This document shows, one piece after another, positions 22,390 through 40,824 of a stretch of DNA of 64,000 nt (position 1 is its first letter; each line of letters opens with the position of its first letter). The notes under the pieces were generated by a model. The model saw nothing but the letters and a program-made list of their open reading frames with translations, was not told where the DNA came from and did no database searches. A program made the translations under genes and the position numbers. This DNA is from an uncultured Leptolinea sp. (GTDB lineage: Bacteria; Chloroflexota; Anaerolineae; Anaerolineales; Anaerolineaceae), in assembly GCA_903828565.1 (NCBI GenBank), contig CAIKMQ010000005.1, positions 1-64,000 of the forward strand, written 5' to 3'.

Positions 22390-22417
22390 TTGACTCACCC
22401 GGTATTCGGTTTATAAT
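22390..22417 (+). promoter_or_regulatory. Near-consensus sigma-70-type promoter for the MarR-type regulator
   Basis: TTGACT (22390-22395) and TATAAT (22412-22417) are separated by 16 bp. Transcription would start near 22423-22425, only about 12-14 bases before the ATG at 22437, so the regulator message would have a very short leader with no room for a normal ribosome binding site. It is the best promoter match seen in the long plus-strand run. Confidence 0.75.
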
Positions 22418-22435
22418 TCAGTTACTGAATACTGG
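22399..22435. promoter_or_regulatory. Nested inverted repeats overlapping the -10 box: likely operator
   Basis: Two inverted repeats overlap the promoter. The outer arms CCGGTATTC (22399-22407) and GAATACTGG (22427-22435) match at 8 of 9 positions. The inner arms ATTCAG (22416-22421) and CTGAAT (22425-22430) are perfect around a 3-base centre. They bracket the -10 box and the presumed start point, where a bound dimer would block polymerase. Autoregulation by the adjacent winged-helix protein is the simplest reading. Confidence 0.6.
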
Positions 22436-22436
22436 T

Positions 22437-22922
22437 ATGGATGACCCCGTTCTCAACCACCGCGAATTGAACCTGCTGCAGGGTATAGAGCAGGACCCGG
22501 ACGTGAACCAGGCCGTTCTGGCTGAAAAGCTGGGCGTGGCTGTGGGCACGGTCAACTGGCATTTAAAGCGCCTGATTGAAAAAGGGGCCATCAAGGTAAA
22601 GCGCGCCTCACGTCGTAAACTGAAATACATCATCACTCCCGAAGGTATCGCCCTGCGCGCCCGTCTGACGCTGGATTTCGTCCAGCAGAGCTTCGCGCTG
22701 TACCGGCTGATTCGCTCGCGGGCAGTGGAAGCCATCCCGGTCATCAGCAGCGCCGGTTATACCGCTGTGCGCCTGCAAGTCGAAGGAGATATGGGGGATG
22801 TGGTGCGCCTGACTTGCCTGGAACACGGCCTGTCGATATCGGAGGATCCGCAGCTGCCGCTCATCCACATGGATGGCATGAAGGTGGTGGTGGATTACCC
22901 TGCCAACGGAGCGCGTCCATGA
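22437..22922 (+). CDS. EPS-associated MarR-family winged-helix regulator with extra C-terminal domain
   Basis: A 161-residue regulator. Residues about 6-75 form a winged helix (QDPDVNQAVLAEKLGVAVGTVNWHLKRLIEKGAIKVKR, then a wing and ITPEGIALRARLT), matching the small EPS-associated MarR family, whose members usually end near residue 105. Here about 60 further residues (PVISSAGYTAVRLQVEG...) follow, a possible ligand- or partner-binding part. It is the only transcription factor in the locus. Its start lies just after a strong promoter with operator-like palindromes, so it probably represses itself and perhaps the downstream genes, to which it is coupled by a 4-bp overlap. Confidence 0.8.
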   Translation: MDDPVLNHRELNLLQGIEQDPDVNQAVLAEKLGVAVGTVNWHLKRLIEKGAIKVKRASRRKLKYIITPEGIALRARLTLDFVQQSFALYRLIRSRAVEAIPVISSAGYTAVRLQVEGDMGDVVRLTCLEHGLSISEDPQLPLIHMDGMKVVVDYPANGARP

Positions 22923-24109
22923 CCCCGCGGGCTCTGCTGGCTCTTACCAGCCATGGTAACGCGCCTTACCTGATGGCTGCGCGCTTTACCCATGCGCTGG
23001 GTGATTACCCGGTGATCATCCCCTGGTATTACGGAAAGACGCAGGCGGATATTCTGCTTGAGGAAGTTCCTGAAATGCGGGAGCGTGTCTATCTTTCCGC
23101 GGCTCTGGGTGGGTTGTTTGCCCCGCTGCTGCTTGAAACCGGCTCTGGGAAGCCCTACGCCCAATTTGCTGCCGGGCTGGCGCGGGAAGATGATCCGCAG
23201 GGGGCGCGAGCAATTGAAGATCAGCTGGCAGGCTTACTACGGGCTGGCATTTCCGCCGAGCCGCTGGATGGCGGGCCTGCGCGTATCTTTCATGGGCAGG
23301 ATCTGGCAGCGGTGATCAACACCACATTGCCTTTACGGGTGGCTGTACCGCGGGTCTTCTTCTTTTTCACGGCGCGCATGTCCAGGTTATACGGCAACAC
23401 CCCCGTCAACGAGAATGACCAGCTGACAACATCCGCGGTGGCAGAGCTGTACCCCTTTGCCAGCTTGTGGCGCAAGGTGGAAGATACCTTCACAGTCTCA
23501 TTCACACCGCGCATCAATGCCCTGAGTGGCAGCATGGAAGATAAAAACGATCAGACGATCCTGACGCCGCCACTGGCATTCCAACGACCGGTTGTCAGCA
23601 AACTCAAGCAGCCGGGGGTGCTCTTCGTTCCCTCCGGTACACGCACCGATATGGCCAAGCTGCACCGTGCCGCGGACGCGTTGCCTGCGGGTTTTCTTCC
23701 ACTGGTGCTGGGCAGCAGCGGCAGCCATCCCGATTACCCTGCTGATCGCTTCACCTGTGTCACGGCGGATGTTTACGGCGACCCGCAATTGCAGGCTGTC
23801 GTTTCGCGCGGCGGCTGGGGAACCCAGTGGGAATGCCTGGCCAACCAGGTGCCATCCGCGATGGTGCGTACTACCTTCGTGGAAGACCCTGAGATTGGCC
23901 ATACCCAGCAGGCTTTGCAGCAACTTGGTCTGGCTGCCGTAGTGGATGATAATTTAGATGATTTTCTGACACCGGGTACCCTGGAATCCTACCGTTCTTC
24001 ATTAGAGGTGGAACGGCAGCGGGACAGGCAGCTGTTTGGTGAACTGGCAAACGATGGTTTCGCTTTCATGGCGAAGCAGATCTGCGACCGCAACTTGATA
24101 GATGATTAA
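22919..24109 (+). CDS. Putative GT-B-like protein of unknown specificity
   Basis: A 396-residue protein I cannot place with certainty. The C-terminal third contains VVSRGGWGTQWECLANQVPSAM and FVEDPEIGHTQQALQQLGLA, which look like the donor-binding part of a GT-B transferase, where a glycine-rich loop and a glutamate contact the nucleotide sugar. The N-terminal part starts with LLALTSHGNAPYLMAARFTHALGD, also compatible with a GT-B N-domain that handles an acceptor. The ATG overlaps the regulator stop by 4 bp; earlier in-frame starts lie inside the regulator. Its direct coupling to the MarR-type regulator is the notable context. Confidence 0.5.
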   Translation: MTPRALLALTSHGNAPYLMAARFTHALGDYPVIIPWYYGKTQADILLEEVPEMRERVYLSAALGGLFAPLLLETGSGKPYAQFAAGLAREDDPQGARAIEDQLAGLLRAGISAEPLDGGPARIFHGQDLAAVINTTLPLRVAVPRVFFFFTARMSRLYGNTPVNENDQLTTSAVAELYPFASLWRKVEDTFTVSFTPRINALSGSMEDKNDQTILTPPLAFQRPVVSKLKQPGVLFVPSGTRTDMAKLHRAADALPAGFLPLVLGSSGSHPDYPADRFTCVTADVYGDPQLQAVVSRGGWGTQWECLANQVPSAMVRTTFVEDPEIGHTQQALQQLGLAAVVDDNLDDFLTPGTLESYRSSLEVERQRDRQLFGELANDGFAFMAKQICDRNLIDD

Positions 24110-25066
<957 letters not shown>

Positions 25067-25117: not shown

Positions 25118-25945
25118 ATGAGTGAAGAAACCACGTTGATCAGGGCATCCAGTGGATGGGTGGCGCTGAACCTGAAAGATCTGTGGAAGTACCGCGAGTT
25201 GGTGTACTTCCTCATCTGGCGTGATATTAAAGTACGCTATAAACAAGCTGCCCTGGGGGTTGCCTGGGCAATTATCCAACCTATTCTGACGATGCTGGTA
25301 TTCAGCACTGTCTTTGGGAAATTCGGTAAGTTGCCTACTGATAACAGCGTGCCGTATCCGCTGTTCACACTGGCGGCCTTGCTGCCGTGGACGCTCTTTG
25401 CGAATGCCCTGCAGCGTTCAGGCACCAGCCTGGTGGGTTCAGCCAACCTGATCACCAAGATCTACTTCCCGCGCCTGATTATTCCCATCTCATCGGTCAT
25501 GGCCGGTCTGGTGGATTTTGGCATTTCCTTTATCATCCTGATCGGTACCATGATCTACTTCAAGGTTTCCTTCACGTGGAATATGCTCTGGATCATTCCA
25601 TTTACCATGTTGACACTGGTGACAGCCCTGGCAGTCGGCTTGTGGTTTTCTGCTTTGAATGTACGCTACCGCGATGTGCAGCAAATGATACCCTTCCTCG
25701 TTCAGGTGTGGATGTTTGCTTCGCCTGTAGCTTATTCCGCACAGTTGATCACAGACCGCAAGTGGCAGATCATCTACGGATTGAACCCGATGGCCGGCAT
25801 CATTCAAGGTTTCCGCTGGTCGCTTCTGGGCGGTACGCCGCCGGGTGAACTGATGCTCCTTTCCTCCGCTGTGATGCTGGTTCTCTTCATCGGCGGGCTA
25901 TATTATTTCAGGCGGATGGAAAAGACATTCGCGGATACGGTGTAA
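25118..25945 (+). CDS. wzm: ABC-2 type polysaccharide export permease (Wzm/TagG/KpsM-like)
   Basis: A 275-residue membrane protein with six helices and the ABC-2 family start LWKYRELVYFLIWRDIKVRYKQAALGVAWAIIQPI. It would form the channel of an ABC exporter for a finished lipid-linked polysaccharide. It is followed after 2 bp by the matching ATPase with a carbohydrate-binding tail. Length and topology are normal for Wzm-type permeases. Its presence in a locus that also has Wzx and Wzy is unusual and suggests two glycans or two sub-loci. Confidence 0.92.
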   Translation: MSEETTLIRASSGWVALNLKDLWKYRELVYFLIWRDIKVRYKQAALGVAWAIIQPILTMLVFSTVFGKFGKLPTDNSVPYPLFTLAALLPWTLFANALQRSGTSLVGSANLITKIYFPRLIIPISSVMAGLVDFGISFIILIGTMIYFKVSFTWNMLWIIPFTMLTLVTALAVGLWFSALNVRYRDVQQMIPFLVQVWMFASPVAYSAQLITDRKWQIIYGLNPMAGIIQGFRWSLLGGTPPGELMLLSSAVMLVLFIGGLYYFRRMEKTFADTV

Positions 25946-25947
25946 CT

Positions 25948-27234
25948 ATGAGCGATATTGCCATTCAAGCTACTAACCTGGGTAAGAGATATCAATTGGG
26001 TGCGCTGGGGACGAATTACCGCACCCTGCGTGACACGATTGTGGATACTTTTACATCCACCACGCAGGCACTGTTACATACCGGTGAGCGAACCGTAACG
26101 CGCGCTGAGGAGAATCGTTTCTGGGCATTGCGCGGCCTCTCGTTTGATGTGAAAAAAGGACAGGTACTGGGTGTGGTCGGCCGTAACGGCGCAGGTAAAA
26201 GCACCTTACTTAAGATCCTTTCGCGTGTCACCGAACCTACCGAAGGTCAGGCAGAGATCCACGGACGTGTCGGCTCACTACTGGAAGTAGGTACTGGTTT
26301 CCACCCTGAATTGACTGGTCGTGAGAATATCTTCCTTAATGGTGCCATCCTCGGCATGAAACGTACCGAAATCGCCGCAAAATTCGATGAGATCGTTGCC
26401 TTTTCTGAGGTAGAGAAATTCATCGATACCCCGGTCAAGCGCTATTCCAGCGGCATGTACCTGCGTTTGGCATTTGCTGTGGCGGCACACCTGGAACCCG
26501 AGATCCTCGTGGTGGATGAGGTGTTGGCGGTCGGTGATGCTGAATTCCAACGCAAGTGCATGGGAAAAATGAGCGATGTTGCTCAGCAGGGCCGCACTGT
26601 ACTGTTTGTCAGCCACAATATGAGCGCTATTCTGCGCTTGACGCAGGAGACGATGGTTCTGGATAAGGGCCAGCTGCTGATGCGCGCGCCAACCCAGGAA
26701 GCGGTGGATTATTACCTTTCCAGTGGATATTCTCGCCAGGGAGAGCGGATGTGGGAAGCGGATGAGATCCCACCCTCTGCCGCCCCTTTCCGGCCGATCG
26801 CCATCCGTGTGAAAGACCCCCGCGGCCGGGTGGTCGAAACTATCCGATCCACCGAACCATTCCAGGTGGAATTTGAGTATCAACTGGCACAACCATTAAC
26901 CGGACTGCGCGTAGGCTTGTATTTTGTAAGCCCGCGCGGCGAGCCGATCTTCACCAGCTTCGATACCGATGAGCCGGCGCAGTACGAACGGCATTCTGCC
27001 CGCAAAGCCGGGCATTACTTCAGCCGCTGCAGCGTTCCTGCCAACCTGTTCAATGAAGGCCGGCTGGTGCTGGGTGTGAATGCCAGCTCCTTCAAGATCA
27101 AGCGCTATTTTCAGGATGAGCAGGCGCTGGTCTTCAGTGTAGACGGCACCGGCGCGCCGGGTTCACAATGGGCTGAACCGCGTCAGGGACCCATCCGTCC
27201 AGCGCTCGAATGGAAGATCGAGGTGCATTCGTGA
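25948..27234 (+). CDS. wzt: Polysaccharide ABC exporter ATPase Wzt with C-terminal carbohydrate-binding domain
   Basis: A 428-residue protein. The ATPase half has Walker A GRNGAGKST (78-86), a Q-loop region, the signature YSSGM (166-170), Walker B ILVVDE (186-191) and the switch histidine 223 in VSHNMS. Residues about 270-428 form the beta-sandwich Wzt_C domain, which in O8/O9a-type systems reads the chain-terminal modification. The extended tail thus predicts export of a capped, size-controlled chain. Three methyltransferases in the locus (18385, 28815, 34562) are candidates for making such a cap. The next gene starts with GTG overlapping its stop. Confidence 0.92.
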   Translation: MSDIAIQATNLGKRYQLGALGTNYRTLRDTIVDTFTSTTQALLHTGERTVTRAEENRFWALRGLSFDVKKGQVLGVVGRNGAGKSTLLKILSRVTEPTEGQAEIHGRVGSLLEVGTGFHPELTGRENIFLNGAILGMKRTEIAAKFDEIVAFSEVEKFIDTPVKRYSSGMYLRLAFAVAAHLEPEILVVDEVLAVGDAEFQRKCMGKMSDVAQQGRTVLFVSHNMSAILRLTQETMVLDKGQLLMRAPTQEAVDYYLSSGYSRQGERMWEADEIPPSAAPFRPIAIRVKDPRGRVVETIRSTEPFQVEFEYQLAQPLTGLRVGLYFVSPRGEPIFTSFDTDEPAQYERHSARKAGHYFSRCSVPANLFNEGRLVLGVNASSFKIKRYFQDEQALVFSVDGTGAPGSQWAEPRQGPIRPALEWKIEVHS

Positions 27235-39078: not shown

Positions 39079-40824
39079 ATGGCTGAAATGACGAAAAAAG
39101 CGAACCTGATCCCTCCCTATGGCGGGAAATTGGTGAACCTGGTTGTAACTGGTAAGGAACGGGATGAACTGGTCGAAAAAGCCACCCACCTGCCGTCCAT
39201 CAAGATCTCTGCCCGCAACCTGTGTGATCTGGAACTGCTGGCCAACGGCTCTTTCTCTCCATTGGATCGCTTCATGGGTCATAAGGATTATGAGCGAGTC
39301 CTGGAGGAGATGCGCCTGGTGGACGGGACCATGTTCCCCCTGCCCATCACATTGACCATTGATAAAGACGCTTATGAATCTCTAGGCGCTGAAGTTGCTC
39401 TGCGTGATGCTCACAACAATCTGGTGGCAGTGATGAAGGTGGAAGAAGCCTTCCCTTATGATAAGGACCGCGAAGCCCGCCTGGCCTATGGCTCGAATGA
39501 CGCCCTCCACCCGATGGTCTCAGAGATGGTACGCTGGGGCAATCTTTGCATTTCGGGTGAATTGAAGGTGGTGAACATGCCCACCTATTACGATTTTAAA
39601 GAGCTGCGCCGTACACCGGCGGAAGTTCGTGCTATGCTGGAAGAGATGGGCAATGACAATGTGGTTGCCTTCCAAACACGCAACCCGCTCCACCGCATCC
39701 ACGAAGAGTTGACCAAACGTGCCGCAGCGGAAGTGGGCGGCAGCCTGCTGATCCACCCGGTGGTCGGCCTGACCAAACCCGGCGATGTGGATCACTTTAC
39801 CCGCGTTCGTATCTACAAAGCACTGGTAGAGAAGTATTATGAACAAGACAGCACAGTCCTCAGCCTGCTGCCTCTGGCCATGCGCATGGCTGGTCCGCGT
39901 GAAGCCCTGCTGCATGGCATCATCCGTCGCAATCACGGTGTCAATCATTTCATCATAGGCCGGGATCATGCCGGACCGGGCAAGGATTCCACTGGCAAGC
40001 CGTTCTACGGCCCCTATGACGCGCAAGAGTTATTCGATTCTTTCGCGGGCGAATTACAGATGAAATCGGTGCCTTTCCAGGCACTGGTCTACCTGCCGGA
40101 TACGAACGAATATGTGGAAGTGGATAAAGTACCTGCCGGTGTGAAAAGCATGGATATCAGCGGCACCCAGGTGCGTGATGATTACCTGGCGAAAGGTAAA
40201 TTGCTGCCGGAGTGGTTCACCCGTCCTGAAACAGCCAAGATTCTACGGCAAATGTATCCTCCTCGCCATAATATGGGATTCTGTATCTGGTTCACCGGCT
40301 TAAGCGGCGCAGGCAAGACAGCCACTGCTGAAGTGCTCACCACCCTGCTGCTGGAACGCGGCAAACAGGTCACCCAGCTGGATGGCGATGTCGTTCGTAC
40401 TCATCTTTCCAAGGGATTAGGCTTCACCAAAGAAGACCGTGACACCAATATTCTGCGCATCGGCTTCGTAGCCAGTGAGATCGTCCGCCATGCCGGTGTT
40501 GTGATCTGCGCTGCCATTTCACCGTACATTGCGATCCGCAACGAAGCCCGCAAGATGGTCGGCACTGATCAGTTCATCGAAGTCTTCGTAGACACACCCA
40601 TCGATGTCTGCGCTTCACGCGATATTAAGGGCTTGTATGCCAAAGCCTTCCGCGGTGAGATCAAGGGCTTTACCGGCGTGGATGATCCATACGAGAAGCC
40701 TGTGAACCCTGAGATCACCCTGGGTACGGTCGGTGTGACCCCCGAAGAGAATGCCCGCATCATTATCAAGCACCTGGAAGAAAAAGGTTACCTGCTTTCG
40801 GATGTGACTGCAGGCGTCGCCTGA
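39079..40824 (+). CDS. Bifunctional ATP sulfurylase / APS kinase (PAPS synthesis)
   Basis: A 581-residue fusion. Residues about 1-395 are ATP sulfurylase with QTRNPLHRIH (199-208), GRDHAGPG (294-301) and SGTQVR (361-366). From about 400 on comes APS kinase with P-loop GLSGAGKT (407-414) and LDGDVVR near 440. Together they convert sulfate and ATP to APS and then PAPS. The kinase P-loop is intact, unlike the degenerate kinase-like domain of fungal sulfurylases, so PAPS production is expected. It sits among glycan genes and not among sulfate-reduction genes; the likely users are the PAPS-dependent sulfotransferases at 50223 and 51089. Confidence 0.95.
   Translation: MAEMTKKANLIPPYGGKLVNLVVTGKERDELVEKATHLPSIKISARNLCDLELLANGSFSPLDRFMGHKDYERVLEEMRLVDGTMFPLPITLTIDKDAYESLGAEVALRDAHNNLVAVMKVEEAFPYDKDREARLAYGSNDALHPMVSEMVRWGNLCISGELKVVNMPTYYDFKELRRTPAEVRAMLEEMGNDNVVAFQTRNPLHRIHEELTKRAAAEVGGSLLIHPVVGLTKPGDVDHFTRVRIYKALVEKYYEQDSTVLSLLPLAMRMAGPREALLHGIIRRNHGVNHFIIGRDHAGPGKDSTGKPFYGPYDAQELFDSFAGELQMKSVPFQALVYLPDTNEYVEVDKVPAGVKSMDISGTQVRDDYLAKGKLLPEWFTRPETAKILRQMYPPRHNMGFCIWFTGLSGAGKTATAEVLTTLLLERGKQVTQLDGDVVRTHLSKGLGFTKEDRDTNILRIGFVASEIVRHAGVVICAAISPYIAIRNEARKMVGTDQFIEVFVDTPIDVCASRDIKGLYAKAFRGEIKGFTGVDDPYEKPVNPEITLGTVGVTPEENARIIIKHLEEKGYLLSDVTAGVA

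Follow-up and report, generated by a model that had tools for sequence, protein, structure and literature searches.

Comparison with described MarR-type regulators

MarR-family proteins are often autoregulated repressors, and classical members such as MarR, MepR, and FabT are small winged-helix proteins with a palindrome over their own promoter. The regulator gene described here lies in a 64,000-nucleotide stretch of DNA (the window) from a genome of the Anaerolineales (Chloroflexota), whose nearest relative among the genomes compared is Anaerolinea sp. SW.3.17 (L031), and it resembles the classical repressors in both respects. It differs from them in the sequence of its predicted operator, with the -10 box forming part of the left flank, and in its putative targets, which are exopolysaccharide (EPS) export and the synthesis of GDP-sugars and PAPS. 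The second group for comparison, MarR_EPS (NCBIfam TIGR04176, equivalog), shares with the window regulator homology across the winged helix (residues 1 to ~94), a setting in polysaccharide loci beside GDP-mannose/GDP-fucose enzymes, and a core TTCA...TGAA 5' of the gene. However, the window regulator scores 69.5 bits against this model, under the curated cut-off of 88, and carries an extra C-terminal domain; its operator spacing is 5, whereas that of the short Rhodobacterales MarR_EPS form is 4. Our search of the open literature found no described operator or binding site for MarR_EPS-like regulators; an autoregulatory switch is a known kind of system, but the operator for this family was not found described.

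The regulator protein and its locus

The regulator gene (22437-22922, plus strand) encodes a MarR_EPS-like protein of 161 aa, composed of a winged helix, a long helix, and a small C-terminal beta-alpha-beta-beta domain. The protein matches the MarR Pfam model PF01047 with 28.6 bits, above the curated cut-off of 24.6, and TIGR04176 is matched by all 54 relatives (best E 3.4e-20). The monomer model has a mean pLDDT of 92 and places the long helix at residues 68-105, after the winged helix. A fold search aligned MarR-type repressors, some of them solved with DNA (MepR-DNA, FabT-DNA), with the first ~80-100 residues, while a sequence search of solved structures with the regulator gave no match. 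The tail of the protein aligns with the C-terminal region of a longer Chelatococcus regulator, which has a weak match to CoA_binding_3 (E 0.034, below cut-off); this hints at a Rossmann-like fold in the tail, and any ligand role for it is speculation.

The regulator, which may be the sole transcription factor of its locus as the sequence-only reading proposed, heads an operon on the plus strand. The next gene (22919-24109) has a weak match, below the Pfam cut-off, to the C-terminal domain of glycosyltransferase family 28, and it is followed by an NAD-dependent epimerase/GDP-fucose-synthase-like gene (24122-25066) and by two genes named by sequence inspection, an ABC-2 polysaccharide export permease (Wzm-like, 25118-25945) and an ABC polysaccharide export ATPase (Wzt-like, 25948-27234). 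This setting in an EPS locus is widely kept, with epimerase homologs 3' of the regulator in 91 and homologs of the ABC exporter permease in 83 of 97 ortholog loci. The same EPS locus contains a bifunctional ATP-sulfurylase/APS-kinase gene (39079-40824), which suggests that the polysaccharide may be sulfated.

Promoter and palindromes

The promoter consists of a -35 hexamer TTGACT (22390-22395), TTGACC-like in about two thirds of the orthologs, a spacer of 16 bases, and a -10 box TATAAT (22412-22417), with the ATG at 22437 lying 19 bases past the box, all as the sequence-only reading had described. With 11 of 12 positions matching, it is the top sigma-70-type match in 19 kb. Fused to the -10 box is a perfect inner palindrome, ATTCAGT-T-ACTGAAT (22416-22430, 7+1+7, centre 22423), whose arms are each one base longer than the ATTCAG/CTGAAT reported before. 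This predicted core operator conforms to a family consensus ATTCA-RYNRY-TGAAT and overlaps both the predicted transcription start and the 3' end of the -10 box. The full footprint is predicted to cover 27 bp (22410-22436), an extent taken from symmetric target sites of the form TCCAAAATTCA-N5-TGAATTTTGGA. Because symmetric sites CAAAATTCA-N5-TGAATTTTG occur at other target genes, the full operator is predicted to be symmetric and ~27 bp long, with the -10 box replacing the left flank at the regulator promoter. In the window the right flank is ACTGGT where the consensus is TTTGGA, and this departure of ACTGG from the family TTTGG counts against reading the element as an operator.

The window also contains an outer inverted repeat over the -10 and start region, CCGGTATTC (22399-22407) and GAATACTGG (22427-22435), complementary at 8 of 9 positions. 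The sequence-only reading had placed this repeat first, and its extended form, CCGGTATTCGGT/ACTGAATACTGG, is complementary at 10 of 12 positions in the genome of the window; in addition, one relative (L043) shows a related ACTGG flank. Both facts would fit an operator formed by the outer repeat itself, but its left arm (22399-22410), possibly a third half-site, is not conserved: the columns at -24 to -16 relative to the centre hold only 0.02-0.12 bits across 97 orthologs, and the repeat was not found in relatives, the congener (L002/L031) included. We therefore discarded it as the main operator and regard this reading as extremely unlikely. The proposal of an operator for the encoded regulator is itself strongly supported, through the inner palindrome and the right flank.

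Conservation among orthologs

A homolog of the regulator was identified in 111 of 151 genomes of relatives, and we assembled 100 non-redundant regulator loci with upstream DNA, mostly at 50-60% protein identity. The motif ATTCA-N5-TGAAT is present at the equivalent place in 97 of these 100 loci (9 or 10 of 10 positions matching) and absent from three, counts that ignore kinship between loci; the palindrome is thus not missing from relatives with the same regulator, the outcome that had been named as fatal to the operator proposal. In all 97 loci TATAAT overlaps the gene-proximal palindrome. The column consensus is TTATAATTCA-RYNRY-TGAATTTTGGA, and columns outside the element carry ~0 bits, an indication that the rest of each orthologous region has been randomised. 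Within the spacer, positions -2/+2 are complementary in 70 of the 97 orthologs against 51 expected, a value reached in 0 of 2000 shuffles, and positions -1/+1 show a weak tendency in the same direction; such covariation is as expected for a site that would be read by a symmetric dimer.

The -35 hexamer is not recognisable (3 or fewer of 6 positions) in 31 of the 97 orthologs, yet the palindrome is exact in all 31, and promoter constraint alone is therefore insufficient as an explanation. Three relatives (L043, L065, and L090) carry two complete operators in tandem before the regulator, 25-26 bp apart, the upstream one occupying the usual place of the -35 hexamer. It could be proposed that the regulator binds the palindrome as an activator or a dual regulator and not as a simple repressor, since some of the promoters that lack a recognisable -35, a third of the total, may be weak unaided, and the second upstream operator in three relatives is in keeping with this idea. 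However, the site overlies the start and the -10 box, a position at which a bound protein normally excludes polymerase; we consider activation unlikely, although it is the alternative to which we give some weight.

Association of the motif with the regulator gene and with other targets

Whole-genome searches with the pattern TATAATTCAN5TGAATWYTG gave 77 occurrences in 69 of the 151 genomes, and the reversed control pattern gave 0 matches in the same set. The pattern occurs in 69 of the 111 genomes with the regulator and in 0 of the 40 genomes without it (Fisher 9e-14). The narrower TATAATTCAN5TGAATTTTG was found at 45 sites in a phylum-wide sample, all of them in Anaerolineales. A few members of the class outside this order encode the regulator, and the site is present in their loci as well. 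Two of these sites are interleaved doublets, the first 5' of the regulator and the second nearby. One locus (L254:1460-1485) has interleaved palindromes with a common arm (AATTCAGTTGTTGAATTTCAACGACTGAAT) that could bind two dimers. Two operator-like sites also occur in the congener (L163:4147 and 4462, G001:C11), 315 bp from each other; each abuts GAAGTACAC repeats 3' of a primase-like gene, probably a mobile element.

This distribution bears on the possibility that the motif is read by a different transcription factor of wide occurrence, or by an unusual sigma factor, with the regulator gene merely one of its targets. The fusion of the motif to the -10 box would agree with that idea, and binding by the encoded protein is, for its part, predicted from sequence; nevertheless, the absence of the motif from all 40 genomes that lack the regulator gene makes another factor very unlikely, and further observations on the targets, paralogs, and distant homologs point the same way.

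We inspected 50 sites, a total in which that of the window figures twice: 40 lie before the regulator, nine before gmd, which encodes GDP-mannose 4,6-dehydratase and has the motif upstream in relatives, and one at a contig end. In family f12, the symmetric CAAAATTCA-N5-TGAATTTTG precedes an ATP-sulfurylase/APS-kinase gene (PAPS synthesis) in four genomes and also, in four genomes, a methyltransferase gene, which in at least some of them adjoins hisS and has a PIG-L deacetylase gene after it. Pelolinea submarina has a second site before a glycosyltransferase of the same locus. Several of the symmetric target sites are not fused to a -10 box, which argues against a sigma factor or another shared factor, and symmetric copies also occur between divergent genes. 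Likewise, the paralogous regulators of f12 (L153:5726, L260, L261, and L262) have their own variant upstream, GAGAATTCA-N5-TGAATTCTC or similar, a pattern that we read as probable operator divergence after duplication; such correspondingly altered sites would not be expected if another factor read the motif. A palindrome like GAGAATTCA-N5-TGAATTCTC also precedes a cytidylyltransferase-like gene at L153:2588.

The genome of the window itself offers a narrower picture. The sequence-only reading had proposed a search for the palindrome before other EPS genes of this genome, and only the regulator's own site was convincing there: the four further matches to ATTCA-N5-TGAAT have no EPS link in the surrounding ORFs, and the long form with up to 3 mismatches gave nothing convincing. 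An exact search for the fused palindrome CCGGTATTCAGCTGAATACTGG returned no match in the genome, the construct being the wrong one. The operator is absent upstream of the window's ATP-sulfurylase gene (39079), whereas the f12 homologs have it. A regulon beyond the operon is thus not supported by the sequence of this genome.

Leader and translation start

If transcription starts ~7 nt past TATAAT, the leader of the regulator message would be ~13 nt long, and it contains no SD-like motif. In TA-led leaderless bacterial genes, a TA signal lies ~12 bp before the start codon (PMC3160421). The window promoter resembles these genes in having TATAAT near the start codon and no SD motif; it differs from them in that 19 nt separate the end of its -10 box from the ATG, too great a distance for a leaderless message. 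The earlier description of an almost leaderless start thus holds for the short predicted leader that lacks an SD motif, but not for leaderless initiation proper. An archaeal-type TATA/leaderless reading was dropped, the host being a bacterium.

SD-like motifs were identified in 18 of the 97 orthologs, against 16% expected in random sequence, and in 19 of the 37 window genes checked; translation of the regulator thus seems to be SD-independent across the group. The claim that the message has no room for a Shine-Dalgarno sequence is partly correct: the predicted leader lacks the motif, like those of most orthologs, but the predicted leader among orthologs has a median of 19 nt and a range of 8-60 nt, and a minimal leader is consequently not a conserved feature.

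It is also conceivable that the palindrome acts at the RNA level, as a leader hairpin for attenuation or translation control, since ATTCAGT and ACTGAAT could pair in RNA and the leader is short and without an SD motif. Nonetheless, the message is predicted to begin within the palindrome, which would leave the left arm of the latter untranscribed, and the symmetric copies between divergent genes do not fit a leader element; we give next to no credence to a hairpin.

MarR_EPS genes of other phyla

The MarR_EPS genes that we identified on plasmids of Rhodobacterales and Chelatococcus are mostly in polysaccharide loci, and TTCA-N4/5-TGAA lies upstream in 13 of 16 such proteobacterial-plasmid loci, a fraction that overstates independence because several are closely related, against 1 of 200 control stretches. 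The form TTCA-N4-TGAA accompanies short regulators (~120 aa), and TTCA-N5-TGAA the long Chelatococcus form. This agreement of the core across phyla is the best evidence that the regulator itself would read the palindrome, and it argues once more against another shared factor. In the EPS region of Sulfitobacter indolifex, the autoregulatory site was the only exact one.

Rhodobacterales marR_EPS leaders (L202-L207) also contain GGTGCGGTAGCC or close variants 20-50 nt before the start, a sequence that resembles the ops/JUMPstart element. Several loci (L203, L214, and L215) also have an RfaH/NusG-type gene near marR_EPS. In Rhodobacterales, the regulator and antitermination may be coupled.

Proposed mechanism and biological meaning

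We consider it very probable that positions 22410-22436 are the autoregulatory operator of the 22437 product, which would repress its own EPS operon by covering the start together with the -10 box. Binding, repression as opposed to activation, the transcription start, and ligand release are what we infer from sequence, and negative autoregulation by occlusion of -10/+1 is the most economical reading of it. A dimer of the regulator would sit on ATTCA-N5-TGAAT and the flanking bases, covering the transcription start as well as the 3' end of the -10 box; RNA polymerase would then be blocked and the regulator's own message repressed. Because the regulator gene is first in the operon, repression would extend to the epimerase and ABC-exporter genes that follow it in the exopolysaccharide locus. 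In some relatives the same protein may also reach the promoters of gmd, PAPS-synthesis, and other EPS genes. Release of the regulator would be triggered by a ligand, for which the small C-terminal domain is perhaps the sensor.

A broader possibility, which we put forward tentatively and hold to be doubtful, is that the entire MarR_EPS group, from the Chloroflexota through to the Alphaproteobacteria, shares TTCA-N4/5-TGAA as an ancient operator code, and that the degenerate Rossmann-like tail of the long form senses a nucleotide sugar or a similar metabolite; if true, polysaccharide precursor levels would feed back on the genes for synthesis, export, and sulfation. MarR_EPS-like regulators are present in polysaccharide loci of several phyla, and a 27-bp operator derived from ~100 orthologs, together with its recurring targets, makes the family directly testable and its regulon readable from the genomes of the group. 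Many Anaerolineales are filamentous bacteria of sludge and sediments, and our results suggest that they may have a common switch for exopolysaccharide export.
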